Assembly (NCBI GenBank): GCA_017402445.1
Contig: JAFPME010000015.1
Span: forward strand, 1-36,973
Source of the DNA: Prevotella sp.
GTDB taxonomy: Bacteria; Bacteroidota; Bacteroidia; Bacteroidales; Bacteroidaceae
Length of the DNA stretch: 36,973 nt
Reading direction: 5' to 3'
Every line of letters starts with the position of its first letter. The first letter of the stretch is position 1. A model generated the notes under the pieces. The model saw only the letters and a list, made by a program, of their open reading frames with translations, was not told the origin of the DNA and ran no database searches. The position numbers and the translations under genes were made by a program. This document shows, piece by piece, positions 8,436 through 28,964 of this stretch.

Positions 8436-11420
8436 TTATAACTTTCCCAACAGCTGCTTGGCCACGGTGACGGCCGAGTTGGCGTTGTCCGAATAGCCAT
8501 CGGCGCCGATCTCGTCGGCGAAACCCTGCGTGACGGGGGCTCCGCCCACCATCACTTTCACGCGGTCGCGGATGCCGGCCTGCTCCAATGCCTCGATGAC
8601 ATCGCGCATATAGCCCATCGTGGTGGTCAGCAGGGCACTCATACAGAGAATGTCGGGCTCGTTCTTCTTCACCTCCTCAATGAACTTGTCGGCAGAAACG
8701 TCGATGCCAATGTTCACCACTTCAAAGCCGCAGCCTTCGAGCATCGAGGCCACGAGGTTCTTTCCGATGTCGTGCAGGTCGCCTTTCACCGTGCCGATGA
8801 CCACTTTGCCAAGCGTCGTGGCACTCGTCCCGGCCAGCAATGGCTGCAACACGGCCAAGGCGGCTTTCATCGCGCGGCCTGCCATCAGCAGTTGTGGTAC
8901 AAATGCCTTGCCGTCTTGGAAACGCTGGCCCACCTCCGACATGGCACGTATCATCTGTTCGTTTACGATGTCCTGCGCAATTTCGCCGCGGTCAATAGCC
9001 ATCTGCGTGGCCTGTGCTGCCTCGGCCGATTTCCCTTCGAGAATGGACGAGAACACAGATGGACCGTTCTGCGTCGGTTCCGACAGCTGTGGATGGTCCG
9101 CTTCGGCCTGCCCCGTGGCTTTTGGTTCCTGCTTTTGGGCGGCGTTGACAGCGATTCCGTCCTCCACAGGACGCATACCGCTGGGCTTGGGCGAAAGGAA
9201 GAGTCCGTTCACGGGCTCCACGGCTTTGCTTAACAGACTGATATGGCGGTCGGTGGTGCCGCAGCAGCCTCCGACCATGTTGAGCCAGTGACCGTCGAGC
9301 AGTGGCCACAGGTCGGCCAGCAGACTTTCTGCCGACTTGCTGTAGCACCCGTCAGCGTCAGGGAAACCGGCGTTGGGATATAGACTGATTCTGTAAGGGG
9401 TCTGCGAAGCGAGCTGCTTCACGAGAGGCGTCATCTGTCTGACGTCCGACAGGCAGTTCAGGCCGACGGAGAACAGCTTCCGGTCGGACAGGGATGCGAC
9501 GAACTCAGGGATGCTTTGGCCCAGCATGTTGTGGCCGTCGGCCGTTGCCACGGAGAAACTGAGCATCAGCGGCAGTTGCTTTCCCTTCCGGCTCATCACC
9601 TCGGCGGCAACATCCAGGGCAATCTTCGCGTTCTGCACGTCGAAGACGGTCTCTATCAGCAGACCGTCCACGCCACCGTCGATGAGTGCTTCCACCTGTT
9701 CTTCGTAGGCATCGCGCAGACGGACGGCGAAAGTGGTGTCGGCATGCTCGTCAGCCAGCGAGCATGTCTTGTTGGTCGGACCGATGGAACCCAGCACAAA
9801 CCGTGGTTTGTGGGGCGTAAGGGCCGTCTGCTCGTCGGCGGCTTCGCGAGCAATGCGACAGGCAGCGAGGTTAATCTCACGGCATGCATCGCCCAGTCCG
9901 TAGTCGTCCATCGATATGCGCTGGGCGTTGAAGGTGTTGGTCTCTATGAGGTCGGCCCCGGCAGCAAGGTATTTGCGGTGGATATCGCGCACGACGAATG
10001 GTGCCGTGACTGAGAGCACGTCGTTGCAGCCTTTCAGTTCCTGCTGATGACGGGCGAAACGTGCACCGCGGAAATCTTCTTCGCGCAACTGGTATTGCTG
10101 TATCATTGTTCCCATGGCACCGTCGAGCACGAGGATTCGCTCCTTGGCTACGTTGGCTAACGACTGTTTCTGAACCTCATGTGATGCAGATGCTTGCCCG
10201 TGGTGCCCCTCCTCGGCGCTGTGATCGAAGCCGCACGGGCAGGTTTCTTTCCGTTGCGGTTCTTCTTTCTCTTCCGAATGTTGCTGCTCAAGCTGCCGGA
10301 ACTGTGCTTCCGTCAGCCGGATGATTTCATCCACCTTGTGGTCGGCCTCGTCCTTCGACTGATATTCCTCCACGATGCGCAGGGCCTGCTCCACTTCACG
10401 TTCGTTGTGGAAGTCCATCTCTAAGTGGACGCCGTCTCCGCCGATGTTATCGAGCAGCGGGCGCAGCTCGTCGAGCGTCACCCAGCAGGCCATGATGCTC
10501 TTGCCGCCGTCCAGGATCTTCCGGTACAGATCGTACCATTTCGGCGATCCTCCCTGCGGTTCACCCACACCGGGCGTCCATTGTATGGCGTTCAGCTCCT
10601 CAATCTCCAACAAGGCTGGCAGATGGTGCATGGCGCCGACGCCGTCAAGATGGTAGAGCGTGTAGTCAATCTTCTGGCACTGCTCGCGAATGAACGGCTG
10701 CACGAACCGTCGGTAGTCATCTTCGCTGATCATCGTCGAGATGTCGCTCTGCAGCTTCGACATCTTGCCCGGCGCCCACGACGAGAAATAGCAGAATGCC
10801 ATCTCGTCACCCTCGCGGATGATGTCGTAGAGCTCGTCGAACACGCGGAAGTAGATGTCGTTGATCTGCTGCATCTGCCGTTCGAGCACCTCAGGTTGCA
10901 TCACCGTGTCGAGCAACACCTTGTCGGTTCCCTTGATGGCGGCCAGCACGTCGAGTCCTTCCATCAGGTCGGGCATGCCCACATAGTAGTGCCCCTGTGC
11001 CTTCGCCTTGCAGGCGCGCAGCAGTTCCTTGTGCAGTATGTAGTTGGGATGGTCGGGACGAAAGACGATGTCATCGGTATAGTTGGGGTCGGGATGAATC
11101 CAGATGGTGTCTTCGCCGCCTTCAAACACACCGCCGAGGATGGCAGCGAGCGAGCCCGGACCCAGTTGTGTGTTGGCCACGGGCAGCATGTCGGCCATCA
11201 GCGACGAGTGGGCCACGTACCAGTCCAGGTAGTCGGCGCGCCACTGCGGGTCGAACCATTTCTGAATCAGGTCGCGAGGCGGCGCCGGCATGGCGATGTC
11301 GGCATGTGGTTGCACGCCGTCTTGGAAGTGTTCCCACATGTTCACAATGATTCCCTTGTGGTTCCACCATCTGATGTAGCGTTGTTTGGTCTCTTCGAGG
11401 TTCGGTTTCCAGGTGTTCAT
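8436..11420 (-). CDS. Three-module corrinoid methyltransferase fusion (URO-D + homocysteine methyltransferase + B12-binding)
   Basis: 994 residues, cytoplasmic. Residues 1-375 form a URO-D-fold methyltransferase of the MtaA/CmuA/MtvB type, with YHLDG near H257 and a possible metal-ligand Cys312 in IMACW. Residues 421-735 match the MetH N-terminal homocysteine methyltransferase (ILVLDGAMGTMIQ, ETNTFNAQ), with the three zinc cysteines present: C656, C719 and C720 (GGCCGTT). Residues 790-994 are the cobalamin cap and Rossmann modules. They include DLHDIGKN, with H883 as the lower cobalt ligand, S928, and G959-G960. Charged, low-complexity linkers (376-420, 737-787) join the modules; the first contains CPCGFDH. 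The folate-binding and SAM reactivation domains of MetH are absent. Inferred reaction: methyl donor to Co(I) to homocysteine. Its ATG overlaps the GH31 stop (ATGA), implying translational coupling. The methyl donor is unknown. Confidence 0.92.
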   Translation of the reverse strand: MNTWKPNLEETKQRYIRWWNHKGIIVNMWEHFQDGVQPHADIAMPAPPRDLIQKWFDPQWRADYLDWYVAHSSLMADMLPVANTQLGPGSLAAILGGVFEGGEDTIWIHPDPNYTDDIVFRPDHPNYILHKELLRACKAKAQGHYYVGMPDLMEGLDVLAAIKGTDKVLLDTVMQPEVLERQMQQINDIYFRVFDELYDIIREGDEMAFCYFSSWAPGKMSKLQSDISTMISEDDYRRFVQPFIREQCQKIDYTLYHLDGVGAMHHLPALLEIEELNAIQWTPGVGEPQGGSPKWYDLYRKILDGGKSIMACWVTLDELRPLLDNIGGDGVHLEMDFHNEREVEQALRIVEEYQSKDEADHKVDEIIRLTEAQFRQLEQQHSEEKEEPQRKETCPCGFDHSAEEGHHGQASASHEVQKQSLANVAKERILVLDGAMGTMIQQYQLREEDFRGARFARHQQELKGCNDVLSVTAPFVVRDIHRKYLAAGADLIETNTFNAQRISMDDYGLGDACREINLAACRIAREAADEQTALTPHKPRFVLGSIGPTNKTCSLADEHADTTFAVRLRDAYEEQVEALIDGGVDGLLIETVFDVQNAKIALDVAAEVMSRKGKQLPLMLSFSVATADGHNMLGQSIPEFVASLSDRKLFSVGLNCLSDVRQMTPLVKQLASQTPYRISLYPNAGFPDADGCYSKSAESLLADLWPLLDGHWLNMVGGCCGTTDRHISLLSKAVEPVNGLFLSPKPSGMRPVEDGIAVNAAQKQEPKATGQAEADHPQLSEPTQNGPSVFSSILEGKSAEAAQATQMAIDRGEIAQDIVNEQMIRAMSEVGQRFQDGKAFVPQLLMAGRAMKAALAVLQPLLAGTSATTLGKVVIGTVKGDLHDIGKNLVASMLEGCGFEVVNIGIDVSADKFIEEVKKNEPDILCMSALLTTTMGYMRDVIEALEQAGIRDRVKVMVGGAPVTQGFADEIGADGYSDNANSAVTVAKQLLGKL

Positions 11421-13678
11421 AGTCGGTAACCTTTAAAGTTTTCGTCAATCTTCACGACGGTAGTTTTCCCTAAGTCCATCTCGTCTGTACATTCCACGTG
11501 CTCGGGATAGATGGGAATCTCGGCCCCTTCTCTCACGAACACAGGCATCACTTCGAGTGGAATATCCTCTAAGTGAATCCACCGTCTGCCTTGAAGACGT
11601 TCGCCGGTAAAGAAATGTACCCATCGGCCGTCGGGCAGATAGACGTCGCGGCGGTTCTCGCTGTTCATCACGGGGGCCACCAGGAAGTCGTTGCCGAAGT
11701 AGTATTCGTCGTCTATGTGCCAACAGGTGCGGTCGTCGGCGTGGTGGAAGACGAGTGCTCGCAGCAGCGTGTAGCCCGTGGAGCAGGCAATCAGGCTCTC
11801 TTGTATTATATAAGGTATAAGGGCATAGCGCAGGTTCCACCACCGTCTGACGATTTCGGCAATCTTCGGGTAGTGCCACGGCTCGCGTTTGTTGGTGCCG
11901 TGATAGCGGATGTGTGACGAGAAGACGCCGAACTGCGTCCACCTGACGTAGACATCGTCCTGCACGATGCCGTTCATGAAGTCGGGCAGCGTGTGGAATC
12001 CCGGCACGTCGTGGCTCCAGAAAGCGAAACCCGAGAGCCCGAAATGCAGTCCGCCGCGCAGCGAACCGGCCATGCCGTCCCACGACGAGCACGAGTCGCC
12101 GCCCCAGTGGAGCGGATAGCGCTGGCATCCGGCCCAGGCGGCGCGCGCCCAGACGATGCCCTGGCCCGTCACTTCGCGCGTCACCTCGTAGGCTGCCTTC
12201 TGATAGAGCAGCGCATAGAGGTTGTTGAGCAGCTCGGGCGTCATGTTCTTATACGTAGCATCCATGTGGATGTTCTCGCCGAAGTCGGTCTTGATGCAGC
12301 TGACGCCCATGCGGAGCAACCGCCGCAGCAGCTCTTTGTACCACTCGGTGGCGCGGTCGTAGGTGAAGTCGATGGTGCCGGCGTAGTCGAGAGCGGAGAA
12401 ATTGGAGCCTTCCGACTCCTGTTTCTTCGTCAGCGGACCGATATAGTCGTTCTCGCGCGCCTCGTCAATCTGCTCGGCATCTTCGGCCACGTAGGGCAGC
12501 TGCCAGAGCGACACGCGGAAACCGTTGTCGCGCAGTCCCTGGATGAAAGCCGGAGGATCGGGGAAACGCTCTTCGTTGAACTTCCACTCGCAGAGCCAGT
12601 CGGTCTTGAACCATCCCGTGTCAAGGTGGATGACGTCGCACGGATAGTGTTCGCGGCGCAGACGGTTGCAGATCGCATTCACCTCGTCGGCGGAGAAGTA
12701 GGTCATGCGGCTCATCCACACGCCGAAGCTCCACAAGGGCGGCATCGACGGGTAGCCCGTCAGGTCGCGGTAGCCACGGATAATCTCCTCTATGCTGTCG
12801 CCGCCGATGATAAAGGCATCGATCAGGGCCTGGTCGCTGAGGAACTGCACGCTGCGTGTGGACTGTCCGGCGAGCGACAGCTTGCTGTGGGCCGTGGTGT
12901 GGTAGAAGGTGCCGTACATCCGGCTCGACACGTAGAACGGGATGTTCTTGTACGTGCGACGGTTGTTCACACCCTGCCCGTCCTGGTTCTTCAGGAAAAA
13001 GGTCTGCCCGCTGAGGTCCATCTTCATGAACCGCTCGCCCGTTCCGGCAAAACACTCGTCGGCCTTGCACTCAAAAGAGAGCGTGGCGCGGTCGTTGCAG
13101 CCCTCGGTCTTGCAATAAGCAACGGGCAGGGCATCGTAGCGCGGCGGCGAGAAGTGGTCGTAGGAGGCCAGGCGCACCTCGTGTTTCCCATCGGGGAAGA
13201 ATCGGATGTCGACCGTTTCCTGCGGTGCGGGCTGCAGGTCGCTCCAGAAATCGATGTCGGGCGATGTCTGCACGATGTGCACGCGCTTCACGCCGTCTTC
13301 TGTGCAGGCGTAATAATGCCCGTGAGGCTGCGTCTCGGCAAGCAGTTGCAGCGGTCTTCTCCTGATTCGCTCTGCATATTGCAGCATGTCGTCTTCGTCC
13401 ACTGGCGTGGTGTTGTCACGATGTTCAAAGTCGATGAAGACCCGCAGGATGTTCGGCTCGTAGTACCTGATGACCATCGTATAGGTCTCGTTTTGTCCCG
13501 AAGGGTCGGCAGCCATGTCGTTAGACAGTGCTTGTCTGCAGAACGGGATACTCACACAGATGTCACCATCGCGTGCAAAGATGGCGTTTGGCCTGCTGGC
13601 TTTCCACAGGCTCTCCTCGCGTTTCAGCTTCGGATCGAAGTCGAGGAAGTCGAACAAATGGTAGTTTGTTGGTTTCAT
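11417..13678 (-). CDS. GH31 alpha-xylosidase-like glycoside hydrolase, cytoplasmic
   Basis: 753 residues without a signal peptide, so an intracellular enzyme. The GH31 catalytic barrel is clear: the nucleophile D465 lies in IKTDFGE, the motif of YicI-type alpha-xylosidases, and the acid/base is D528 in HWGGDSCSSWDGM. An N-terminal beta-sandwich occupies about 1-280, with PPLWSFGVWMSRMTYFS at the domain junction. Alpha-xylosidases remove non-reducing alpha-linked xylose, for example from isoprimeverose of xyloglucan (family knowledge). It starts 2 bp after the beta-helix gene and overlaps the next gene by 4 bp. Because it is tied to a methyltransferase, its substrate may carry a methylated sugar. 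Exact specificity cannot be read from sequence. Confidence 0.92.
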   Translation of the reverse strand: MKPTNYHLFDFLDFDPKLKREESLWKASRPNAIFARDGDICVSIPFCRQALSNDMAADPSGQNETYTMVIRYYEPNILRVFIDFEHRDNTTPVDEDDMLQYAERIRRRPLQLLAETQPHGHYYACTEDGVKRVHIVQTSPDIDFWSDLQPAPQETVDIRFFPDGKHEVRLASYDHFSPPRYDALPVAYCKTEGCNDRATLSFECKADECFAGTGERFMKMDLSGQTFFLKNQDGQGVNNRRTYKNIPFYVSSRMYGTFYHTTAHSKLSLAGQSTRSVQFLSDQALIDAFIIGGDSIEEIIRGYRDLTGYPSMPPLWSFGVWMSRMTYFSADEVNAICNRLRREHYPCDVIHLDTGWFKTDWLCEWKFNEERFPDPPAFIQGLRDNGFRVSLWQLPYVAEDAEQIDEARENDYIGPLTKKQESEGSNFSALDYAGTIDFTYDRATEWYKELLRRLLRMGVSCIKTDFGENIHMDATYKNMTPELLNNLYALLYQKAAYEVTREVTGQGIVWARAAWAGCQRYPLHWGGDSCSSWDGMAGSLRGGLHFGLSGFAFWSHDVPGFHTLPDFMNGIVQDDVYVRWTQFGVFSSHIRYHGTNKREPWHYPKIAEIVRRWWNLRYALIPYIIQESLIACSTGYTLLRALVFHHADDRTCWHIDDEYYFGNDFLVAPVMNSENRRDVYLPDGRWVHFFTGERLQGRRWIHLEDIPLEVMPVFVREGAEIPIYPEHVECTDEMDLGKTTVVKIDENFKGYRL

Positions 13679-13680: not shown

Positions 13681-15579
13681 CTATATTCTCATTTCTTGCT
13701 GTCTGAGTTCTGGGGTGTTTGGTGTCACCGTTGATGGCTCATTATTTGGTTTTGCCTTTGGTCCGTTGTTGCGAATCACCATCTTCGGTCCCGGCTTGTT
13801 GTAGCCGAAGCTCTCGAAGGGCATCTGGTTGTCTTCCACGGTGAAGCCGTCAGTGGCTTCGTCGAAGTAGATGCAGAAGGCGCGGTCGTTGGTGGCGTAG
13901 GGAGCCCGTGCGGGTGCGCCGATGCGGTTGTTGCGGATGGTGGAGCCGGGCTGGTTGCTCAGGGTGTAGATGCCGCCGGTGTCGTAGAGCTGCTTGGCAT
14001 AGTCGTACACGCGGTTACCCTCGATGCGGTTGTTACGCATGCCGCTCTCCAAGGCCGTCCATCCCCAGCCCACGCAGATGCCCGAATAGTTCAGGTCCGA
14101 CACGTCGTTGTTCACGATCTCGATGTTGCGCACGTAGCCGGCGCCTATGCCCACGGCTCCCCAGTCTTCTGTCGTGCAGTGTCGGATCTCGTTGTTGCTG
14201 ATCACGACGCCGTCGCAGATGTCCTCGTCGTGCTTGGGCGCATAGGGAACGTGCGTCTCGAAGCCTTGGTCGGGGAAAGTGCCCACCATGATGGCCGTGC
14301 CGCCGATGTTGTGGAACGAGCAGTTGCGCACGGCAGAGCGGCCGACGCTCTTCTCCATGTCGAGACCCGTGGCGGCGAGGTTCTCGAAGTGGCAACCGTC
14401 GAACACGATGTCGTCGGCATAGCTCACTTTCACCGCCGCGTCGGGACGCTCTATCCATGCCTGGTTCTCCAGTTCCGCCTTCTCGGGCAGACCTGGCTGG
14501 CGCAGCTTGTAGGCATCGATGAGTGGGAATCCGCCCTGCAGCGTGACGTGTCCCTGCTCCGACGGCCGCGTCCAGGCCGCATTCTTGATGTTCACGTCCT
14601 CAAAGCGGATGTGGTGCACGCGCCGCTCGGGCGTTCCGCTGATGTTGATGAGCGTTTTCAGCGCGGGTGCAAAAGGCCATGCGAAAAACTCATCCTGCGG
14701 CTGAAGGATTTCGGCATCGTAAGGATAATAGTACACGCGGCCCGACGGATAGTCCTGATACCACTCTCCGGGCTCGTCCAACAGCTCTAACGCATTCTGC
14801 AGGCAGAACGACGAACTGCCCTTCTCGCCGTTGATGACGGGTTGAGGCCACGGATGTTCAAACTCCAGCTGACTCTCGGGCTCGTGGAACGAGACGATGG
14901 TCGAGTCGCCCATCACCTGCATGTCTTTCACACGCAGGATGGCGATGGCCCACCGTTGGTGCACCACCATCTCCAACTGGCGTGCCTTCCGGAGGTCTTG
15001 CCGTGGCGTGGGAATGGTGATCGTCCGGTCTTTCGTGTTGAAATTCAGCATGCGTTCCATCCGTACGGAGGGAGTCTGGATGGCCGATTCGCAGCCGTCG
15101 ACGTAGAATGTGCCGAACTGCGTGGCCATACGCCCATGGTCCAGCTGCCGGAACCAGAGAATGCGGTTGCCCACGCGCGGCGCCTCGGCCGTCCATATCT
15201 TGTCTCTCAGGGCCGGGGCCACGCGCTCGTCATCGCAGCCGCGTGTCCATTTCTCCATCCTGACGCCGCCATTGAGCACGGCAGCACCCTTGATAATGGT
15301 GGGCGACTCTTCCGTTCCGCTGTCTTCGGGACGGATGAAGATGGGGCGCGCGAGCTGGTAGGTGCCGCTCTCTAAGTGAATCGTGATGCCGCCTGCCACC
15401 TCCGGACGCTTCAGCCGCCGCCATTCGCGCGCCTGCCTGAGTGCTTGGTCCACCGTGGCCAGCGGTCGCTCGCGCGTGCCGTCACCATTGTCGCTGCCTT
15501 GCGGAGCCACATAGATGTCACCAGCCGTCATCTGCCCGGCGCAGACCACGGCCATTATGATCGTCAACAGTCTTTTCAT
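13681..15579 (-). CDS. Secreted right-handed beta-helix protein, possible glycoside hydrolase (GH120/GH141-like)
   Basis: 632 residues with a signal peptide (MKRLLTIIMAVVCAGQMTAG). The mature protein begins with IYVAPQGSDNGDGTRERPLATVDQALRQA, the entry motif of Bacteroidetes polysaccharide-active beta-helix enzymes. PIFIRPEDSGTEESPTIIKG follows, then many short parallel beta-helix (PbH1) coils between about 390 and 590 such as IEIVNNDVSDLNYSGICVG. This layout resembles GH120 (beta-xylosidase) and GH141 (fucosidase/xylanase) proteins; the assignment is from memory and tentative. It is the first gene of the operon with the GH31, methyltransferase and symporter genes, behind a consensus promoter. 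It probably acts first, in the periplasm or on the cell surface. The C-terminal ~30 residues are polar and look disordered. Confidence 0.8.
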   Translation of the reverse strand: MKRLLTIIMAVVCAGQMTAGDIYVAPQGSDNGDGTRERPLATVDQALRQAREWRRLKRPEVAGGITIHLESGTYQLARPIFIRPEDSGTEESPTIIKGAAVLNGGVRMEKWTRGCDDERVAPALRDKIWTAEAPRVGNRILWFRQLDHGRMATQFGTFYVDGCESAIQTPSVRMERMLNFNTKDRTITIPTPRQDLRKARQLEMVVHQRWAIAILRVKDMQVMGDSTIVSFHEPESQLEFEHPWPQPVINGEKGSSSFCLQNALELLDEPGEWYQDYPSGRVYYYPYDAEILQPQDEFFAWPFAPALKTLINISGTPERRVHHIRFEDVNIKNAAWTRPSEQGHVTLQGGFPLIDAYKLRQPGLPEKAELENQAWIERPDAAVKVSYADDIVFDGCHFENLAATGLDMEKSVGRSAVRNCSFHNIGGTAIMVGTFPDQGFETHVPYAPKHDEDICDGVVISNNEIRHCTTEDWGAVGIGAGYVRNIEIVNNDVSDLNYSGICVGWGWTALESGMRNNRIEGNRVYDYAKQLYDTGGIYTLSNQPGSTIRNNRIGAPARAPYATNDRAFCIYFDEATDGFTVEDNQMPFESFGYNKPGPKMVIRNNGPKAKPNNEPSTVTPNTPELRQQEMRI

Positions 15580-15948: not shown

Positions 15949-15956
15949 TACCTTTG
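15949..15956 (+). promoter_or_regulatory. -7 promoter box for the OmpP1/FadL-type gene
   Basis: TACCTTTG is an exact TAnnTTTG box followed by CAAC, as in many strong Bacteroidetes promoters. It lies 27 bp before ATG 15984. No TTTG is found at the -33 distance. The box argues against the TTG codon at 15954 being the start. Confidence 0.65.
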
Positions 15957-15983
15957 CAACCATGTTTTTTAATGGTAATTAAG

Positions 15984-17513
15984 ATGAATAAATTAAAATT
16001 TGCCTGCATTGCCTTTGCAATGACAGCGTCAACCGCCTACGCTGGCGGCATTTTGACCAACACAAACACGAACATTGCCTTCAACAGAATGATGGCCCGC
16101 GACGGTGTCATCGCTATTGACGGCGTGTATACCAACCCCGCTGGCGTGGTCTTCATGGACGAAGGTTGGCATCTGTCGCTCAACTGGCAGGCTGCTTTCC
16201 AGACGCGCACCATCCTCACAACGAACCCCGACTTCGCCCTCGGAATGAGCAACAACGGACAGACGACGAAGGAGTTCAAGGGCGAAGCCATCGCTCCCGT
16301 CATCCCTTCCATCCAGGCCGCCTACAACCGAGGCCGCTGGAGCCTGCAGGGCAGCTTCGCACTGACGGGCGGCGGCGGCAAGTGTGAGTTCGACAACGGC
16401 ATCGGGTCGTTCGAGAGTGCCGTCGGCGCCATTGCCAAATCGCTGCAGCCCCTGGGCGCTACGGGCTACGATGTCGATGGCTACATGCGCGGCAAGCAGT
16501 ACTATTTCGGCTTCACCCTCGGCGCTGCCTACAAGCTCACCGACAACCTGTCGGTCTATGGCGGTGCCCGACTCATCTATGGTACGGCCTCGTATAAGGC
16601 GAACCTCAGCAACATCCGCGTGAACACAGCCGCCGGAGCAGTGCCCTTCGGTACGTTCCTCGACAATGCCAACGTCACCATCGCCGGAGGCATCGCTCAA
16701 TACAGTGCTGGCATCACCAAGTTGGAAGCCGGCATCGCTCAGTATCAGGCTGCCGGAGCACCCGTTCCCGAAGAGCTCACCACGCAACTGGCCACCGCCA
16801 AGGCTGCGAAAGCTCAGCTCGAAGGAACGCAGCAGAGCCTGCAGACGCTCGACATCTACCGCGAGGGTGTGAGCCTGATGTCCGATCAGACCGGGTGGGG
16901 CGTTGCGCCCATCGTGGGTATCGACTACAAGACGGGCGACTTCAACTTCGCCGCGAAGTATGAGTTCAAGACGCGCATCCGCATGAAGAACAGCTCCACC
17001 GTGAAGGAAGCGCACCAGATAGCAGCCATCAACAAGTACCGCGACGGCAGCAAGGTGCCCGAGGACCAGCCGGCACTGCTCACCGTGGGTGCTCAGTGGT
17101 CGGTCATTCCCACCGTTCGCATCAATGCAGGCTACCATCTGTTCTTCGACAAGTCGGCCCATTGGTACAACCACGAGGAGAAGAAGCTCGACGGCAACAC
17201 ATGGGAGGTGAACGGCGGTGCTGAATGGGACGTCACCGACAAGCTCCTCGTCAGCGGAGGCTTCCAGAAAACGAACTACGGGCTGTCCGACGAGTACATG
17301 AACGACATGTCGTTCGTCGTGAGCAGCTATTCCTACGGTGTGGGACTGTCGTACAAGCTCAGCAAGAAGATGAAGCTCAACGTGGCTTACTTCCAGACCA
17401 ACTACGATACCTACAAGCAGGACGTCACACCCACAGCCACCAACAGCACCACGCACAACGACTACACTCGCACCAACCGCGTGGTAGGCGTCGGTCTTGA
17501 TATCGACTTTTAG
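15984..17513 (+). CDS. OmpP1/FadL/TodX-family outer-membrane protein
   Basis: 509 residues from ATG 15984 (MNKLKFACIAFAMTASTAYA, signal peptide); an in-frame ATG at 15972 is possible. The mature N-terminus GGILTNTNTNIAFNRMMARDGVIAIDGVYTNPAG is the FadL-type plug segment carrying the NPAG motif. Alternating beta strands follow, ending in VVGVGLDIDF with a terminal Phe, the usual outer-membrane barrel signature. FadL-type channels pass hydrophobic molecules such as fatty acids or aromatics across the outer membrane. An Ala/Gln-rich helical insert at about 235-295 interrupts the strands. It is transcribed away from the methyltransferase operon; the shared intergenic region allows co-regulation, but no functional link is shown. 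Confidence 0.88.
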   Translation: MNKLKFACIAFAMTASTAYAGGILTNTNTNIAFNRMMARDGVIAIDGVYTNPAGVVFMDEGWHLSLNWQAAFQTRTILTTNPDFALGMSNNGQTTKEFKGEAIAPVIPSIQAAYNRGRWSLQGSFALTGGGGKCEFDNGIGSFESAVGAIAKSLQPLGATGYDVDGYMRGKQYYFGFTLGAAYKLTDNLSVYGGARLIYGTASYKANLSNIRVNTAAGAVPFGTFLDNANVTIAGGIAQYSAGITKLEAGIAQYQAAGAPVPEELTTQLATAKAAKAQLEGTQQSLQTLDIYREGVSLMSDQTGWGVAPIVGIDYKTGDFNFAAKYEFKTRIRMKNSSTVKEAHQIAAINKYRDGSKVPEDQPALLTVGAQWSVIPTVRINAGYHLFFDKSAHWYNHEEKKLDGNTWEVNGGAEWDVTDKLLVSGGFQKTNYGLSDEYMNDMSFVVSSYSYGVGLSYKLSKKMKLNVAYFQTNYDTYKQDVTPTATNSTTHNDYTRTNRVVGVGLDIDF

Positions 17514-20423: not shown

Positions 20424-22403
20424 TCACTCGATGGGCTTCTGGCTGAACGTCTGGAAGTATTTCAGACAGACGTCGCGCCACTCGCGGGCGTTCTCCACCT
20501 GGTGCTGCAGGCGGTCGTTCACCTCGTTCCAGCGCTGCGCATCACCGCCGTCGATGGTCAGGACGTGCTCCTTCATGCGCTCCCAGATGGCGGGATACTT
20601 CTCCACCTCGGCCACGCCTTGGTTGTATTTCAGGCAGAGCTCCTGCCACAGTGTGCGTCCGCTCTTCATGCGGTAGGTCCAGGGCACGTGGTGGAACCAG
20701 AGCAGGTACTGTTCGGGGCAGGTCTGCAGGTTATCGTACAGTGAGGCGTAGGGCTCGTTGTACTGCGACACGGCGTTGGTCCCCTTGCTGCTGCGGTCGA
20801 AGCCGACGCCGTCGGCATCGGCCTTATGGTAGTAGACGGGGCACCACTCTATCGGGTATTCGGCCTTGAAGCCGTCGGGTTCGGGTCCGTAGTGGTGGTC
20901 GAACTTGAAGATGTGGTGCAGTCCCAGGGGCATCATGTAGTTGACGCAAGCCTCGCGGCTGCCCAGCATCAGCATGGTCATCGTGTTGACGAAGGCCGGA
21001 TCGTTGTCGAAGGTCTGACTGAGCCATTCGCGTGCGATGGTTTCCGACGACAGTTCAGGATTCCAGGCCAGTCGTCCGAAGGCGTACCAGTTGGCCTGCG
21101 AGAAGTGGTGTCCGCACCAGTTGCGGTCCTTTCCGATGTTGGCCACACCGGCGATGCCGCGCAGGTTGCAGGGCGGAACGAAGGTGAAGAACTCCTTCCA
21201 CATCGGAGCCAGATAGACGAGATGGCGCGACTGGCCGAGATACTCCTGCGTAATCTGCAGCTCGGCCATGTTGGGTGTCTGGCGAATCTGGTCGAAGACG
21301 GGGCTGTAGGGCTCGCGCGGCTGGAAGTCGAGCGGTCCGTTCTTGGTCTGCAGGATGACGTTCGGACGGAATTTCCCGTCGAGGGGCTTGAACTCGGAGA
21401 CGGCTTGTTTCACGCGGTCTTCACCCTTGTGGTTGGCACCGTAGACAAAGCAGCGCCACATGACGATGCCTCCGAAGGGCTTCAGCGCGTCGGCCAGCAT
21501 GTTGGCACCGTCAGCGTGCGACCGTTTGTAGTCGCCGGGGCCGGGCTGTCCCTCGCTGTTGGCCTTGACCAGAAAGCCGCCGAAGTCGGGAATGAGCTGA
21601 TAGATCTCCTTGGCCTTGCGCTTCCACCACTGAGCCACCTGCGCGTTGAGCGGGTCGGCAGTCTTGGTGTCGCCGAGTGCCATGGGACTTGCGAAGTTGA
21701 TACTCAGGAAGACGCGGATGCCATAGGGCCGAAGGATGTCGGCAATCGTCTTCACCTCCTTCAGATAGTCGGCGGTGAGGATCTTCGGCGAGGCGTTCAC
21801 GTTGTTCAGCACGGAGCCGTTGATGCCGATGGAGGCGTTGGCGCGTGCGTACTGGCGGATGCGCTGTTCGTCGAGATGGAACCACTCGAAGATGCTCTCG
21901 CCCGCATAGCCGCGCTCGATGCTTCCGTCGAGGTTGTCCCAGTGGTTGAGCAGGCGCAGGGGGAAGGCCGGGCGCTCGGTCTTGTCGACGTTCTGGCCGT
22001 CAAGTCCGACCCTCGGAGCAATGCCGCCCGTGTTGAGGACGTCGGTGTTCTGCAGTCGCAACAGCTCGTAGGCGCCGTAGAGCAGGCCCCGGTCGGTGCT
22101 GGCATAGACGGTGGCCTGGTAGCTTCCCGTGCATCCCAGCTCCTTGCAGGTGGCCACGACGCGGTAGCCCTCGTCGAGCTTCAGGCTCTTGTCGAGCACC
22201 AGCTTCACCTCGTCGCCCAGCTGCCAGCCGTTAGCGAGTTCGCTGCAGGCGATGTCGATGGTGGCCGACTTGGCGTTGGCCGTCACTTTCGGGACGTTGG
22301 ACCGCGTCAGGTCCCACAGCCCGAGCCATAGTTTGTAACCGTCGTCTGCCTTGGAGATGAGCGCCATGAGGCAGAGAGAAATCAGCATGAATGACTTTTT
22401 CAT
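20424..22403 (-). CDS. aguA: GH67 alpha-glucuronidase
   Basis: 659 residues with a signal peptide (MKKSFMLISLCLMALISKADD), so a periplasmic or secreted enzyme. GH67 enzymes remove (4-O-methyl)-glucuronic acid from the terminal xylose of short xylo-oligosaccharides. The catalytic residues map by spacing to the characterised enzymes: acid E284 in KANSEGQPGPGDY, and D359 and E387 (GPLDFQPREP and ITQEYLGQ, 28 residues apart as in Geobacillus AguA). Full length for the family. It follows the regulator gene by 36 bp and is last in the leftward operon. The equivalent in Prevotella bryantii is xynF. Its product, methylglucuronate, is the candidate methyl donor for the corrinoid fusion at 8436-11420 (inference). 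Confidence 0.95.
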   Translation of the reverse strand: MKKSFMLISLCLMALISKADDGYKLWLGLWDLTRSNVPKVTANAKSATIDIACSELANGWQLGDEVKLVLDKSLKLDEGYRVVATCKELGCTGSYQATVYASTDRGLLYGAYELLRLQNTDVLNTGGIAPRVGLDGQNVDKTERPAFPLRLLNHWDNLDGSIERGYAGESIFEWFHLDEQRIRQYARANASIGINGSVLNNVNASPKILTADYLKEVKTIADILRPYGIRVFLSINFASPMALGDTKTADPLNAQVAQWWKRKAKEIYQLIPDFGGFLVKANSEGQPGPGDYKRSHADGANMLADALKPFGGIVMWRCFVYGANHKGEDRVKQAVSEFKPLDGKFRPNVILQTKNGPLDFQPREPYSPVFDQIRQTPNMAELQITQEYLGQSRHLVYLAPMWKEFFTFVPPCNLRGIAGVANIGKDRNWCGHHFSQANWYAFGRLAWNPELSSETIAREWLSQTFDNDPAFVNTMTMLMLGSREACVNYMMPLGLHHIFKFDHHYGPEPDGFKAEYPIEWCPVYYHKADADGVGFDRSSKGTNAVSQYNEPYASLYDNLQTCPEQYLLWFHHVPWTYRMKSGRTLWQELCLKYNQGVAEVEKYPAIWERMKEHVLTIDGGDAQRWNEVNDRLQHQVENAREWRDVCLKYFQTFSQKPIE

Positions 22404-22439
22404 ATTGTTCGTGTTTTGATTTTGATTCAGGTGCTGCCG

Positions 22440-25400
22440 TCACGCCTCTGTCTCAGCCGAACGTTCCTGTTCGCTGTACTCGGTGGGCGTCATGCCGAAA
22501 TGTTTCTTGAAGATGGTGGAGAAGTGGGTCTGGTTGTTGAAACCGACGGCGTAGGCCACCTGCGTGACGTTGATTTTCTTTTCCTTGATGAGCCGGGCGG
22601 CCTGCTCTAAGCGCAGGTTGCGGATGAAGTCGCCAGCCGAGATGCCTGTGATCTCCTTCATCTTGCGGTGCAGCTGTGCGCGGCTGATGCCGACCTTCTC
22701 GGTCAGGCGCTCCACGTTGAAGTCGGGATCCTGCAGGTTCTCGTTGATGCACTTCATGATGCGCTCCATCAGGGCGTCGTTGTTGCCCTTCACTTCCACT
22801 TTCTCGACCTTCTCTTCCTGCTTCTGCGCACCGGAGAACTTGCCGCGCAGACGCCGAACGTTGTCCACCAGGTTGTCGATGAGGATGTGGAGCTCCTCCA
22901 TGCTGAAGGGCTTTGCCAAGAAGGCATCGGCCCCTTTCTTCAGACCTTCGAGTCGGTCGCTGACCTCGGCCTTCGACGTGAGCAGGATGACGGGGATGTC
23001 GCTGATGTTGGTGTTGCCCTTGATGTTCTTCAATAGTGTGATGCCGTCCATCTCGGGCATCATGATGTCGGAGATGACCAGGTCGTAGCTGCCCGTGAGC
23101 AGGAGCTTCAGGGCCTCCTTGCCGTTTGGTGCGGCATCGAAGCGGTACCAGTTTCCGAGCTCGGAGCGGATATATCCGGCTATCTCGGCATCGTCGTCGG
23201 CGATGAGAATGCGGAAGTTCTTCGATGCTTGCTTCTTTGGCGCGTTGCTGAATGTGGGTTCTTCCTCTTTCTCCAGTTCTTCGGGCTTCAGATGGTCATT
23301 GCCCATGGGCAGGTGGATGGTGAGCACCGTGCCGCGCATGCCGTCGGGACGGTTGGCAGCCGTGATGGTGCCGCCGTGCATGTTCACGATGGCACGGCTC
23401 AGGTTCAGTCCGATGCCCGTGCCGTCGAGGTGCAGGTCACGGGCGTTGGAGCCCTGGTAGAAACGGTCGAAGAGGCGGTCGGGCTTGTCTTCCTTCAGCC
23501 CGATGCCGTTGTCGATGACCTGAATGACGGCCTCGGGCTTGCCTTCCGTCGATGTCTGCTGCGACAGCACCACGTCTATTTGTCCGCCGTCGAAGGTGTA
23601 CTTGAAAGCGTTGGAGAGCAGGTTGCTGATGACCTTGTCGAAGTTGATGCGGTCAATCCACACGGGGATGGTCGCCGTCTGCTGGCCGTTCTGCCGGTCG
23701 GCGTCGTCCGTCGCAGCCTGTGTGGGTTCCACCTGAAGGCCGAAAGCGATGTTGCGCTGCTGCGCATTGTAGTTGTAGAGCGAGCAGATGCCGCTGACAA
23801 AGGAGACAAGGTCGGTCTCGCGGCAGTGGAGCTGCATCTGGTTCTTGTCAATCTTTCGCTCATCGAGAATCTGGTTCACTAACAGCAGCAGTCGCTGGGC
23901 GTTGCGGTCGATGGTGTCGATGTCGTTCTGGCATTCAGCATCGGTGACGCGTTCCTTCAGTTTCTTCAGCGGACCCATGATGAGGGTCAGCGGAGAGCGG
24001 ATGTCGTGCGTGGCATTGATGAGGAATCGCATCTTCGATTCCTCCAGTTCGGCCTTGCGCTGACGGTCGAGATAGTAGAAGAGGAAACCGGCGAGTCCCA
24101 TCAGGAGCAGTATATATATAAGGTATGCGAGTGTGGACGAATACCACGGTCCGCGCACGTCCACGGTGATGGTGCAGGTGCTTTCTGAGTAATTGCCGTT
24201 GCAGACGGCCCGCACCTCGATGATGTAGCGGCCGGGTTTCATCTTGTTGAACGAAATGGCGTTCATGCCTTCGTTCGTGGAAATCCAGTCTTCGCTGCCG
24301 TTCAGCCGGTACTGGTAGAAAATGTTCTCGGTGTTCTTGTAGTTGAGCAGTGAGAACTCCAGGGTGAACGAGTTCTCGCCGTAAGGCACCGTGAACTCAT
24401 TGGCCAGCGGACAGACGGTTTCGTTGCCGATGAGGAAGTTGGTCAGGTAGACATCGCCCATCTCGATGCGGCTGTTGCGGACGGTCTGCGGCTGGAAGGT
24501 GGTGATGCCGTCGTTCGTGCCGAAGCCGATGGTGCCGTCGGGAGCCTGCATGACGGCTCCCAGCACGTACTCCTTGGTGGAGAGACCGTTGCCGTGGAGG
24601 TGTCCGATCCATGCTTTCGACTTCATGCTGTATTGCCAGATGCCGATGGAGGTGCTCACCCAGATGTCGCCCTCGATGTCGGTGACGATGCCGTAGATGA
24701 GCTTGTCGTTGAGCTCTTCGGCCCCGGGAAACGGTTCTATCGTCTTCTTGATGCGGTCGAAGACGTAGAGTCCGGCGTTGGAGCCGATGAGGATATTGCC
24801 CTGTTTCTGCTCGGAGAAGGCTGTACACTGGTGGCCTTGCAGCATCACTTCCCATCCGAAGGTGCGGAAATTCTGCGTCTTGGTGTCCATGACGGACAGG
24901 CCGTTTGACGTTCCGATCCACAACATGCCGTAACGGTCGACGAAAAGCGACTTGATCCAGTCGTTGCAGAGCGTTCCAAGCTTCGGGTCGCTGGCGGTCA
25001 TACTGATGTGTTGTTGCTCGTTGGTGGCGGTGTTCAGGATGCGCAGTCCCTTTCCGAAGTCGCAGATGTAGAGCTTGCCGTCTTCGCCGCTCGCCATGCA
25101 GTTCAGGCCCCAGCCGTCGCCCGTCATGCGTGACTGGCTGGCTCCCGTGGTGGGTTGGTAGCTGTAGAGCGTGTTCTCGGTGCTCACCCAGTAGCGTCCC
25201 TGGCGGTCGCGCAGGATGGCTTTTGTGCCGTTGGGAGCCGGCAGCGTGGCAACCACCTTTCCCTGGCGGTTGAACCGGTAGATGTGATTGTTCTGTGCCG
25301 CGCAGAGCACGTCGCCTTCGTCGTCGCAGACGATGGCCGACACGCTGCTGCCGATGTTGATGTTCTGTTCGGAGAAGCGCCAGCTGCTGAAAGCCTCAGC

Positions 25401-26396
25401 GCCGGGATTGAGCTGGTAGAGCCCTTTCTGGTAGCAACTCACCCAGATGTTCTGGTCCTTGTCCTCCATGATGTCGTTGACATGGGTGGAAGTCAGGTCG
25501 TACTTCACGTTGAGGTTCTCCACTGGACGCATTTCGCGCTGGCCTCGGGGAATGATTGTCAGACCGAGACCCGTGGTGCCGATGTACAGGTCGCCGGTCT
25601 TGTTCAAGATGGCTTTGCGGATAGAGATCTGGCCGCCGAGCAGTGACAGGTCGTAGCCGGCATCGCTGACGGTCTCCGTAGCGTAGTCGTAGCGCAGGAT
25701 GCCGTACATGCAGACGATGAGGAAACCGCCGTCGTCGGTCTTGATGAACGACATCGGCGCCCCACAGGGCGACACGTAGTCTTTTTCGGCTACGGCTTTG
25801 TGGTCGCGGATGGTGATGCGGGTGAAGGTGTTCAGGTGACTGCTCCGCCAGAGACGGTGCTGGTCGTCTTCAAAGATGCGGCTGTAGAAGGCGTCTTCCT
25901 TTCGCTTGTTGAAGCTTTCTTCACGCGTGATGTGCTCTTCGCCCTTGCGAATCTGGTACAGTCCGTAGCCTGCGGTGCCGATGTACAGGTCGCCATCGGA
26001 GGTCATGATCAGTGAGTTCACGCGTGGCACCTGATGGTCGGGGAAGGCATAACGCACGAACCGGTTGTGCTCGTAGTCGTAGCGTGAGAGTCCTTTCCCG
26101 CTGCCTACCCATAGTCGGCCGTCGCGGTCGGACAGCACTTTCACCACTTCGTTGTCGTTGATGGTGAGCGTGTCGGACGGGTTGTTCAGGTATCTCGTGA
26201 ATCGGTAGCCGTCGAACTTGTTCAGACCGTACTCGGTTCCGATCCACAAATAACCGTACTTGTCCTGAATCACGCAGTCGATGAGCGAGCTGGACAGTCG
26301 GTCGCCGGTAAAGAGTCTCCTGACGTCGGCTTTCATGTGGGCAGCCAACGCCAGGAGGATGATAATAAAAGTTAGTTGGTATGGTTTTCGTTTCAT
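22440..26396 (-). CDS. Hybrid two-component system regulator (HTCS) of the xylan locus
   Basis: 1318 residues, inner membrane. A signal or anchor segment (1-23) precedes a periplasmic sensor of about fourteen two-component-regulator propeller repeats (30-640; for example GYLWIGTEYGLNKFDG). A Y_Y_Y domain (about 670-750) and one membrane helix (756-776) follow. The kinase has the phospho-acceptor H797 in NATHDIRSPLTLI and ATPase motifs DNGIGL and GTGIGLNLS. The receiver domain has the phospho-acceptor D1110 in ISDIMMPEMDG. An AraC-type DNA-binding domain (about 1208-1315) is last. HTCS proteins bind oligosaccharides and activate nearby glycan genes. The place between GH115 and GH67 suggests a xylo-oligosaccharide ligand, the role of XynR in P. 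bryantii. That XynR has a different sensor part, so I do not reuse its name. Confidence 0.95.
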   Translation of the reverse strand: MKRKPYQLTFIIILLALAAHMKADVRRLFTGDRLSSSLIDCVIQDKYGYLWIGTEYGLNKFDGYRFTRYLNNPSDTLTINDNEVVKVLSDRDGRLWVGSGKGLSRYDYEHNRFVRYAFPDHQVPRVNSLIMTSDGDLYIGTAGYGLYQIRKGEEHITREESFNKRKEDAFYSRIFEDDQHRLWRSSHLNTFTRITIRDHKAVAEKDYVSPCGAPMSFIKTDDGGFLIVCMYGILRYDYATETVSDAGYDLSLLGGQISIRKAILNKTGDLYIGTTGLGLTIIPRGQREMRPVENLNVKYDLTSTHVNDIMEDKDQNIWVSCYQKGLYQLNPGAEAFSSWRFSEQNINIGSSVSAIVCDDEGDVLCAAQNNHIYRFNRQGKVVATLPAPNGTKAILRDRQGRYWVSTENTLYSYQPTTGASQSRMTGDGWGLNCMASGEDGKLYICDFGKGLRILNTATNEQQHISMTASDPKLGTLCNDWIKSLFVDRYGMLWIGTSNGLSVMDTKTQNFRTFGWEVMLQGHQCTAFSEQKQGNILIGSNAGLYVFDRIKKTIEPFPGAEELNDKLIYGIVTDIEGDIWVSTSIGIWQYSMKSKAWIGHLHGNGLSTKEYVLGAVMQAPDGTIGFGTNDGITTFQPQTVRNSRIEMGDVYLTNFLIGNETVCPLANEFTVPYGENSFTLEFSLLNYKNTENIFYQYRLNGSEDWISTNEGMNAISFNKMKPGRYIIEVRAVCNGNYSESTCTITVDVRGPWYSSTLAYLIYILLLMGLAGFLFYYLDRQRKAELEESKMRFLINATHDIRSPLTLIMGPLKKLKERVTDAECQNDIDTIDRNAQRLLLLVNQILDERKIDKNQMQLHCRETDLVSFVSGICSLYNYNAQQRNIAFGLQVEPTQAATDDADRQNGQQTATIPVWIDRINFDKVISNLLSNAFKYTFDGGQIDVVLSQQTSTEGKPEAVIQVIDNGIGLKEDKPDRLFDRFYQGSNARDLHLDGTGIGLNLSRAIVNMHGGTITAANRPDGMRGTVLTIHLPMGNDHLKPEELEKEEEPTFSNAPKKQASKNFRILIADDDAEIAGYIRSELGNWYRFDAAPNGKEALKLLLTGSYDLVISDIMMPEMDGITLLKNIKGNTNISDIPVILLTSKAEVSDRLEGLKKGADAFLAKPFSMEELHILIDNLVDNVRRLRGKFSGAQKQEEKVEKVEVKGNNDALMERIMKCINENLQDPDFNVERLTEKVGISRAQLHRKMKEITGISAGDFIRNLRLEQAARLIKEKKINVTQVAYAVGFNNQTHFSTIFKKHFGMTPTEYSEQERSAETEA

Positions 26397-26418
26397 GGAT
26401 TAGTCAGATGATCGTTCG

Positions 26419-28941
26419 TTATTCCTGAGTCCGCGGGGATTCGCGTCCGAAGAGGTACGAAGGCTGGTGGCCACCACAGTCGACCACGATCTTCTCGAAG
26501 ACAATGGCCGGGTCGAGCGGTTCGACGACCAGCGTGTGCTGACCTGCTTCGGCCTGCACGTTGATGTCTGTCACGACGATGCGCCGGGCCACCGTCGGGT
26601 AGTAGAGCGAGTAGATGTTCTCCGGCTTTTCGTTGAGGTTTTTGTTGAAGTTGCAGACCACGGGAGGCTGTCCGTCGAGGGTCACGCGGAAGCGGTGACC
26701 GCCGCTGTTCTGGAAGTCGAGTGTGGACTTGACCACGATGTAAACGCGTTTCACGGCGTTCTGAGTGTTGAAACGGTAGGTGAGCGACGCGCCGCTGTTC
26801 TCGTTCAGCGCTACGTTGTAGGGTTGCAGGCTGATGCCGCTCAGCGTACGGCCCATGTCGGGGATGAGGGTCCAGCGCAGGCCTTCGCCGTCGTTCTTGC
26901 TGAAGAAGTGCTCTGCTTCGATGGCGACGACACCGTTCTTCTCGGCAAACAGGTTTGAACCGGTCCGTTCGGTCATCCGGAACACCTGCGGCATGACGTC
27001 CTTCGGACCGAAGTCGTCGTTCCACGAGCGATAGCCGATGTGCTTCTGCACCATCATGCCGTTCCACTTGCCGCCAGCAAGGTCGTGATTGTACTGTGCA
27101 CAGAGCACGGAGTCACGGCGGAAAGCCTGTTCGGCGCGGTCGGCCCATAGGTTGCAGTCGGGGTTCTTTTCCTTATAGAGCTGGTGGTTCATGGCCACAG
27201 CCTGGTAGAGACGGTAGATGTTTCCCATGGCCTGAATGGGGAAGAGAATCAGCTCGCGATAGGCATCGCGCTGATTGGGGCGCAGAGAGACGAACTGCTC
27301 GAGCGCTGCGCGTTCCAGTTCGGTGTAGTCGGCGACGACACCTTCCCATTCGTCGAGGGCATACGTGGTGGCGTCCAGCATTTCGGCCGTGCTGCGGCCG
27401 TTGAGCTTCGATACGCGGTTCAGCAGACGGGCTGCCTCGTCGGCCTGCTCCTCGCCGAAGCAGGCACGGCAGAAGTCTCGCGTGTGCGGAAGGCAGTCTG
27501 CTGTCATGAGGCCGCCGGCCGTGTCGGCAACCGATGCTGCCGTCTGCGGATTCCATGCCATGTCCATGAACAGCTGGATGGGGTACTCCATGGGCTTCAG
27601 GTCGCCCACGTTCAGGATCCACATCTGGTCGATGCCGTACTGGGAAGCGAGCGTGAGCTGTTCCCACATGTTCTGCACGGGGGTGACATTGAGCCATTTG
27701 GAGTTGCGGGGCGCACCGACGTAGTCCACGTGGTAGTAGAGTCCCCAGCCGCCCTTGTGCGACTTCTCCTTCTTGGTCATGGGGACGCGGCGCACGTTGC
27801 CCCAGTTGTCGTCGCAGAGGAGGAAGATGACGTCGTCGGGAACTTTCATACCGGCGTCGTAGTAGTCCATCACCTCTTTATATAAGGCCCACACCTGAGG
27901 CGTTTCCTTGGCTGGGCGCTTGGTCACCTGTTCGATGATGCGCCGCTGGTTGCTCACGACATTTTCGAGCAGACGCGTGTCGGCCTCGGCACTCATGGCT
28001 TCGTCGCCGTCGCCGCGCATGCCGATGGTCACCACGTCTTCGGTGCCCTGTCGGCGCTCCATGCCTTCACGGAAGAAACGGTCGAGGTTCTCCTTGTTCG
28101 TGCTGTAATTCCAGGGACCCCATTCTTTCCTGTGACGGGCATACTCCTGGTGGTTGCGCGCCATGGGTTCATGATGGGAGGTGCCCATGACGATGCCCAT
28201 CTCGTCGGCAATGCGGCTGTTCTCGGGATCGTCAGCGTAGAATGCCCAGCTCCACATGGCGGGCCACATGAAGTTTCCCTTCAGTCGCAGGAGCAGTTCG
28301 CACACGCGCTCGTAGAAACGGTGGTCGCCGTAGTCAGTGCCATAGGTGTATTTCACCCATGAGGTCAGGCAGGGGGCTTCGTCGTTGAGGAAGATGCCAC
28401 GGTAGCGAACGGCCGGCTCGCCGTCGGTGTATGTACCTTTCTTAATGAATATCTGGTCGTGGGCTTCCACGGGAACGTCGGCCCAGTCGTACCATGGCGA
28501 CACACCCATCTGGCGGCTGAGTTCGTAGATGCCATAGATGGTGCCGCGACGGTCACTGCCCGCAATGACCAACTGCTCGCCGACGGTGGTGATGATGAAT
28601 TTCTCGCGCTTCCCCTGCAGGTCCTTCTTGTTGAAGACACCCTGTTTCGCCAGTTTGTCTATCAGCTTGCTGTGGCCAATCGTGCCCACGATGACGTGCG
28701 CATCCTCACGCGTCGTCACCTCGGAGGGGAAACCGCACACCTTGTGGATGTCGGTGGTCAGGTCGTGTGCGGCCCTCGACACTCCTTTCTGGTCGTCAGC
28801 GTCGAGATAGACCAACACGGGGAAACTCTTGTTCAGGCAGAAGTCACCCTCGGTGAAAGACACAAACTGCGGGGCAGCCATTCCACAAACGTGCTGTAGC
28901 AACACGATAGACAGTAACAAATAGCGATAGCGAAGTTTCAT
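26419..28941 (-). CDS. GH115 alpha-glucuronidase
   Basis: 840 residues from ATG 28941 (MKLRYRYLLLSIVLLQHVCGMAA, signal peptide); the frame runs 17 codons further upstream, across the promoter box. Recognised by the N-terminal domain with HVIVGTIGHSKLID and RRGTIYGIYELSRQMGVSPWYDWADVPV, the catalytic barrel blocks RYRGIFLNDEAPCL, NFMWPAMW, MGTSHHEPMARN and IGMRGDGDEAM, and the C-terminal KWNGMMVQKHIGYRSWN region. GH115 enzymes remove (4-O-methyl)-glucuronic acid from internal as well as terminal xyloses of glucuronoxylan, complementing GH67. First gene of the leftward operon, 22 bp before the regulator gene. Confidence 0.94.
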   Translation of the reverse strand: MKLRYRYLLLSIVLLQHVCGMAAPQFVSFTEGDFCLNKSFPVLVYLDADDQKGVSRAAHDLTTDIHKVCGFPSEVTTREDAHVIVGTIGHSKLIDKLAKQGVFNKKDLQGKREKFIITTVGEQLVIAGSDRRGTIYGIYELSRQMGVSPWYDWADVPVEAHDQIFIKKGTYTDGEPAVRYRGIFLNDEAPCLTSWVKYTYGTDYGDHRFYERVCELLLRLKGNFMWPAMWSWAFYADDPENSRIADEMGIVMGTSHHEPMARNHQEYARHRKEWGPWNYSTNKENLDRFFREGMERRQGTEDVVTIGMRGDGDEAMSAEADTRLLENVVSNQRRIIEQVTKRPAKETPQVWALYKEVMDYYDAGMKVPDDVIFLLCDDNWGNVRRVPMTKKEKSHKGGWGLYYHVDYVGAPRNSKWLNVTPVQNMWEQLTLASQYGIDQMWILNVGDLKPMEYPIQLFMDMAWNPQTAASVADTAGGLMTADCLPHTRDFCRACFGEEQADEAARLLNRVSKLNGRSTAEMLDATTYALDEWEGVVADYTELERAALEQFVSLRPNQRDAYRELILFPIQAMGNIYRLYQAVAMNHQLYKEKNPDCNLWADRAEQAFRRDSVLCAQYNHDLAGGKWNGMMVQKHIGYRSWNDDFGPKDVMPQVFRMTERTGSNLFAEKNGVVAIEAEHFFSKNDGEGLRWTLIPDMGRTLSGISLQPYNVALNENSGASLTYRFNTQNAVKRVYIVVKSTLDFQNSGGHRFRVTLDGQPPVVCNFNKNLNEKPENIYSLYYPTVARRIVVTDINVQAEAGQHTLVVEPLDPAIVFEKIVVDCGGHQPSYLFGRESPRTQE

Positions 28942-28964
28942 GATCGTTGTGTTTATATTTGTTG

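Follow-up and report, generated by a model that had tools for sequence, protein, structure and literature searches.

A predicted one-protein corrinoid methyl-transfer chain in gut and rumen Bacteroidota and its possible link to methylated sugars of rhamnogalacturonan II

The stretch of DNA analysed here (the window) comprises 36,973 nucleotides of contig JAFPME010000015.1 from a Prevotella sp. genome (GCA_017402445.1), and its element of interest is an open reading frame (ORF) of 994 amino acids on the reverse strand (8436..11420) that fuses three domains in one chain. The N-terminal domain, MT1 (residues 1-360; 10341..11420), carries an H257-L-D259 motif and is followed by a linker that is variable in the alignment (residues 361-426; 10143..10340). 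Next comes a homocysteine methyltransferase (Hcy) domain matching PF02574, with the zinc ligands C656, C719, and C720 (residues 427-737; 9210..10142), and the chain ends in a corrinoid cap and binding domain (PF02607, PF02310) with a DLHDIG motif that contains H883 (residues 788-994; 8439..9059). A preliminary description based on the letters alone had read this domain order, the three cysteines and the DxHxxG cobalamin module in the chain; the domain and fold searches bore out all of them, and C656, C719, C720, D881, H883, H257, and D259 were each kept in 88 of 88 aligned three-domain proteins (some genomes enter this alignment twice). Three further genes on the same strand accompany the fusion: a GH141 glycoside hydrolase with a signal-peptide-like start, whose closest solved relative is BT_1002 (13681..15579), an alpha-xylosidase-like GH31 enzyme in which no signal peptide was seen by eye (11417..13678), and a Na+/solute symporter (SSS; PF00474, TIGR00813; 6803..8374). 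The order GH141, GH31, fusion, and symporter runs in one direction, and by the coordinates GH141 and GH31 are 2 bases apart, GH31 overlaps the fusion by 4 bases, and 61 bases separate the fusion from the symporter start; a promoter scan returned 5 sites against 5.3 expected.

The four Pfam families suggested earlier for a domain search gave a divided outcome, since PF02574, PF02607, and PF02310 were found whereas MT1 had no match to Pfam, PF01208 included, at E<=10. The URO-D-like character attributed to the N-terminal part was recovered from its fold: a structure model of MT1, prepared for this domain alone because the first whole-chain model was poor in the MT1 part, has the URO-D/MtaA fold when compared with known structures, a result that concerns fold and not activity. 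An MT1 profile searched against PDB sequences returned chance-level matches and nothing better, and TIGR01463 was not among the matches of the fusion at E<=0.001. The pterin domain, already reported as missing, was not found by Pfam in the fusion at the same threshold, a Pfam scan returned no activation domain in the chain, and the score of 495.4 bits against TIGR02082 lies below the MetH equivalog cut-off of 1010.85. Proteins of the MtaA/CmuA family have an HxC...C zinc motif, and H257-L-D259 would be the counterpart of their HxC site. MT1 is proposed to be a methyl-sugar:corrinoid methyltransferase, and the Hcy domain with its three zinc cysteines is proposed as the acceptor site.

A frameshift or misassembly joining separate genes had been named as a possible source of this architecture, and a survey of genomes had been suggested. 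A scan of GTDB contigs recovered 313 relatives, and the counts of loci given here refer to the best 80 of these 313. All three domains lie in one frame in 67 of the 80 loci (in L101 as far as the contig end), showing that the fusion is a family and not an artefact; the survey uncovered a large family together with two-domain and split forms. The two-domain form (10 loci) consists of MT1 and the corrinoid domain in about 600 amino acids and occurs in Bacteroides and Phocaeicola, its carriers including P. vulgatus ATCC 8482 and B. faecis MAJ27, and the remaining three loci are interrupted by contig ends. In the split form at L022, MT1, a symporter, a corrinoid protein, a second URO-D-type protein (UROD2), and a reactivase are separate genes between GH31 and GH141, and at L138 MT1 shares one cluster with a separate PF02574 protein and a reactivase, with no UROD2 seen. 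Two split cassettes have a GFO/IDH/MocA-type oxidoreductase as the neighbour of their stand-alone MT1 (L138:10629-11678 and L139:8609-9673), and sugar oxidation may be part of the pathway there.

The distribution of the family differed between the genome samples. Among 60 relatives, the fusion was present in 8 of 35 same-genus genomes, with stand-alone MT1 in G054 and G041. A draw of 398 genomes, all from the genus of the window, had MT1 in 107, and among the 175 genomes of good quality in this draw MT1 was present in 38; matches were obtained in 12 of 324 genomes drawn from the order and in 4 of 395 drawn from the phylum, both counts including the window's own genome and the other three phylum matches being weak. 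Estimates of dN/dS by NG86 over 15 pairs ranged from 0.006 to 0.075 for MT1, from 0.015 to 0.14 for the corrinoid domain and from 0.07 to 0.27 for the Hcy domain, although one value could not be defined and silent sites were saturated in several of the pairs; all three domains are constrained by purifying selection, the Hcy domain least. A tree was built from 89 Hcy domains, 63 of them taken from fusions, and these 63 formed one set that groups with MetH (support 88/98, below the tool's star). In the corrinoid tree, in which the tool flagged long branches, a clade with 100/99 support set the 19 MetH rows apart from both the fusions and the stand-alone corrinoid proteins. Read together, the two trees suggest that the acceptor domain of the chain is of MetH type and is joined to an MT1 and a corrinoid protein of demethylase type. 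The two-domain rows are nested inside the three-domain rows of the corrinoid tree with weak supports and the MT1 tree was unresolved, so that it is no more than likely that Bacteroides lost the Hcy domain.

The methionine metabolism of the 38 good-quality carriers bears directly on the acceptor. PF02574 was found in all of them, with two matches in 30 and the fusion alone in 8 (G004, G084, G102, G149, G168, G251, G366, and G368). MTHFR was present in exactly the 30 carriers with two PF02574 proteins and in none of the eight fusion-only genomes, and MetE (PF01717) was found in 0 of 38, a control search being positive in 10 of 14 genomes; these absences rest on genome completeness, which is 91% for G251 and G368 and 97-99% for the other six of the eight. 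The fusion-only genomes are scattered over three or more parts of the Hcy tree, and one of them (G366) is the cultured isolate X. caecicola PCHR, with a 19-kb stretch and the fusion identical and the fusion as the only PF02574 protein found in its genome. The genomic data thus support the earlier proposal that methionine would be made from a non-folate donor, and transfer of a non-folate methyl group to homocysteine through the fusion can be considered likely. The enzyme could alternatively be a methionine synthase variant that still uses methyl-tetrahydrofolate, bound by the MT1 barrel or by another protein; the grouping of its Hcy domain with MetH, the related fold of MT1 and the methyl-folate-using MetE, and the MTHFR of 30 of the 38 carriers agree with this, but the missing pterin domain, the 8 carriers without MTHFR, and an operon consisting of sugar enzymes make it exceedingly improbable.

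The identity of the donor was approached through the neighbouring genes. In the flanks searched around the 80 loci, which vary in length and in which a simple script took the longest ORFs as genes, GH141 was found in 51, GH31 in 50, both in 47, and SSS in 45. In the PDB the operon GH141 matches BT_1002 best, at E 7.7e-147 and with homology along the chain; two aspartates of BT_1002 are aligned in it and conserved in 59 of 59 rows; these residues (528 and 569 of the chain) would correspond to the catalytic Asp523 and Asp564 through a 5-residue offset. According to excerpts of PMC10154630, BT_1002 frees 2-O-methyl-D-xylose-alpha1,3-L-fucose from chain A of rhamnogalacturonan II (RG-II), and a xylanase is the only further GH141 that they mention as characterised. 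The operon GH31 was classified by NCBIfam as alpha-xylosidase-like, below the cut-off. It matched PDB entry 5f7c (deposited as an alpha-glucosidase), which we take to be BT_0339, with 1374 bits, and the B. faecis copy reached 1701 bits. A GH106 enzyme adjoining the fusion in G035 matched 5mqm with 1219 bits, presumably BT0986, an RG-II rhamnosidase (5msy would likewise be BT_1012). Moreover, RG-II-type GH106 (E<=1e-100) was present in 102 of 107 MT1 carriers versus 29 of 291 non-carriers (odds ratio 184, Fisher p 6e-61, a statistic that ignores genome relatedness), and the window's own metagenome-assembled genome (50.7% complete) has one on contig C11. Methylated sugars, one of the donors guessed at earlier, are favoured over methoxyaromatics by the operon of sugar enzymes; an O-methyl sugar of RG-II appears a reasonably likely donor from this gene context, and the odds that it is specifically 2-O-methyl-xylose seem about even. 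Because GH67 and GH115 lie only 5 kb away (window 20424-28992), 4-O-methyl-glucuronate from a xylan locus was also considered, but priA separates that locus from the fusion operon and the two xylan enzymes do not accompany the fusion elsewhere (GH67 in 0 and GH115 in 1 of the 80 loci), which leaves this donor very unlikely. In G032 the fusion adjoins a sugar kinase that resembled a xylulokinase; it is grouped with glycerol kinase by NCBIfam (608 bits) and therefore gives no support for xylose.

From these elements a pathway can be proposed in which a secreted GH141 would free a disaccharide such as 2-O-methyl-xylose-alpha1,3-fucose from side chain A of RG-II, the Na+ symporter would take up this disaccharide, or else the methylated sugar, and the cytoplasmic GH31 would split off 2-O-methyl-xylose. 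The URO-D-fold MT1 domain would then hand the ether methyl group to the cob(I)alamin bound by the corrinoid domain, and the MetH-type zinc domain would use the methyl-cobalamin so formed to methylate homocysteine. The products would be methionine and a free sugar, and a separate Met_synt_B12-like protein would reactivate oxidised cobalamin. We infer all chemical steps, the transported species and the sugar identity. This reading rests on the domains, the fold, the conserved residues, the operon, the co-occurrence with RG-II enzymes, purifying selection, and the fusion-only genomes without MTHFR, and judged from sequences a one-protein chain leading from an RG-II methyl sugar through methyl-cobalamin to homocysteine is somewhat more probable than its alternatives combined. 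The fullest form of the proposal, namely that gut and rumen Bacteroidota make folate-free methionine from RG-II 2-O-methyl-xylose within one protein via cobalamin, that MetH, MetE, and MTHFR have all been replaced in some lineages, and that the operon GH31 supplies the activity missing for the one RG-II linkage reportedly left uncleaved by B. thetaiotaomicron, is tentative and falls slightly short of an even chance.

Several observations weigh against this reading, and those on the acceptor side are taken first. The Bacteroides and Phocaeicola forms do without the Hcy domain, this domain evolves faster than the adjoining ones by dN/dS, and 30 of the 38 carriers keep a MetH-like protein. The non-carriers G010, G016, and G026 have neither MetE nor MTHFR nor a full-length Hcy match, and loss of the folate branch therefore need not imply dependence on the fusion; such genomes may simply need methionine. 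In addition, UROD2 is kept beside three-domain fusions, which should need no other acceptor enzyme. UROD2 is encoded in 49 of the 80 loci, including 6 of the 10 two-domain forms, its best PDB match is 4ay7 (E 3e-13), the MtaA/CmuA models score below cut-off, and an HxC...C motif is found in 7 of 7 aligned rows. A profile-profile comparison of MT1 with UROD2 found no relation (probability 1.2%), despite the URO-D fold of MT1 by structure and the PF01208 match of UROD2. Conceivable roles for UROD2 are those of an additional methyl donor enzyme, of another acceptor enzyme acting on a thiol, or of a helper protein. If this MtaA-like thiol methyltransferase were the real acceptor enzyme, the Hcy domain of the fusion would have a secondary role, perhaps that of a spill-over or regulatory site, as its faster evolution might suggest; however, the zinc cysteines kept in every aligned fusion, dN/dS values well under 1, the eight genomes without another PF02574 protein or MTHFR, and the split cassette L138, where a stand-alone PF02574 protein is present and no UROD2 was seen, make this quite improbable.

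Cobalamin reactivation is probably supplied in trans, by a stand-alone PF02965-type, MetH-type protein encoded in 48 of the 80 loci; in the window's own genome it lies side by side with UROD2 on contig C41. That genome also has a separate protein that consists of a Met_synt_B12 domain in nearly complete form (G000:C24:52094-52858). The MetH proteins of Prevotella at L161, L162, L164, L165, and L168 have only 913-927 amino acids and apparently end before the activation domain.

On the donor side, demethylation of an unactivated alkyl ether is chemically difficult, and 26 of the 80 loci have none of GH141, GH31, and SSS in the flank. Among these 26, L063 adjoins capsule-type genes, but some others retain genes of RG-II type, for example L069 with a BT_1020-like protein two genes upstream of the fusion and a GH78-type enzyme; L032, a 98-99% copy of GH141, GH31, and the fusion, has no symporter after the fusion. 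B. thetaiotaomicron raises a further difficulty. In excerpts of the literature BT_0338 is a GH141 (PMC8264420), BT0339 an alpha-xylosidase (PMC10434189), and BT_0340, BT_0342, and BT_0343 Mta methylamine-type corrinoid proteins (PMC8941943), names that agree with the gene order in P. vulgatus (L068), and BT_0338-BT_0343 seems to be a two-domain version of the cassette. As far as the excerpt of PMC8941943 goes, the probe used there captured four B12 proteins or complexes, and these methylamine-type proteins did not belong to them. Excerpts of PMC7939467 state that B. thetaiotaomicron cleaves 21 of 22 RG-II linkages, the exception being 2-O-Me-Xyl-alpha1,3-Fuc, and that the wild type accumulated this disaccharide; that all linkages but one are cleaved is also stated in an excerpt of PMC12282258. 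The build-up therefore speaks against use of the disaccharide by the cassette under those conditions, and we can only guess that missing induction or missing B12 explains it. The same chemistry could act on another donor, such as RG-II 2-O-methyl-fucose, a methoxyaromatic or a methylamine, with GH141 and GH31 incidental or serving a different glycan, and the 26 loci, the unused disaccharide, the methylamine-type names, and distant MT1 relatives next to rhamnosidase-like genes all lean that way. We nevertheless regard another donor as unlikely, since GH141 and GH31 are the commonest neighbours, the operon GH141 resembles an enzyme that releases the methylated disaccharide, and RG-II-type GH106 accompanies nearly all carriers. 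The distant relatives (L141:9242-10336 and L142:2768-3850) have 25% identity to MT1 and keep an H-x-D-G motif; the first lies beside GH106- and GH78-like genes and the second beside GH31-like and RhaT-type genes, and they are perhaps demethylases of another O-methyl sugar.

The preliminary description knew of no enzyme with this domain order, and no published description of it was found among the matches listed from the open-access literature, within which the fusion system is a variant of corrinoid methyl transfer not previously described. It shares with MetH (TIGR02082) the zinc homocysteine domain with three cysteines, the cobalamin cap, the DxHxxG domain, and a PF02965-type reactivase, here a separate protein, and differs in having no pterin domain, a URO-D-fold module in front, and a corrinoid domain of another lineage. 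Three-component corrinoid O-demethylases consist of MT1, a corrinoid protein, MT2, and an activator, and move a methyl group from a methyl ether to cob(I)alamin and on to an acceptor. The fusion would follow the same logic, judging by the portion of PMC3727330 that describes such a system. It likewise has a TIM-barrel-fold MT1 and a corrinoid protein with cap and DxHxxG, but it holds all three transfer parts in one chain, its acceptor domain is of the homocysteine methyltransferase type rather than a folate enzyme, and its donor is probably a sugar. CmuA fuses URO-D and corrinoid parts, an order shared by the two-domain Bacteroides forms; in contrast to the MtaA/CmuA family, with which it has the URO-D fold in common, MT1 has HxD instead of HxC and matches neither PF01208 nor TIGR01463, and the fusion places the Hcy domain between the two parts. 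BT_0338-BT_0343 apparently resembles the system in its GH141, alpha-xylosidase, and corrinoid proteins (excerpts of PMC8941943, PMC8264420, and PMC10434189), but no Hcy domain is expected there, judging by the two-domain relatives, and the published name is of the methylamine type. The type 1 mlp gene clusters, as presented in excerpts of PMC10418091, likewise occur in non-methanogens and encode an activase and a corrinoid protein along with MtaA-like proteins, with a proposed link to methionine; unlike the present system they occur mostly in Firmicutes and use methyl-S and methyl-Se donors, and those excerpts describe no sugar enzymes and no such fusion.

If the proposal is correct, a single enzyme would run the whole O-demethylase cycle with homocysteine as the acceptor, and plant-wall pectin instead of folate would provide a new methyl source for methionine. 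In common bacteria of the rumen and gut, B12 and the digestion of pectin would thereby be linked to the supply of methionine. A cassette currently annotated as methylamine-type would gain a function, and GH31 and the symporter would become candidates for the step of RG-II breakdown that is reported as unsolved. The cultured X. caecicola PCHR makes the proposal directly testable.

Elsewhere in the window, a glucuronoxylan locus (20424-34142) encodes GH67, a hybrid two-component regulator, GH115, a GDSL esterase, an MFS_2 transporter, GH10, and GH43. A 519-aa protein (15954-17513) has the look, by eye, of a secreted outer-membrane barrel; the Pfam scan of this region covered the antisense frame 16029-17456 and gave no match. 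An Rfam group-II-D1D4-3 intron match (36918-36973, 43 bits) is interrupted by the contig end.

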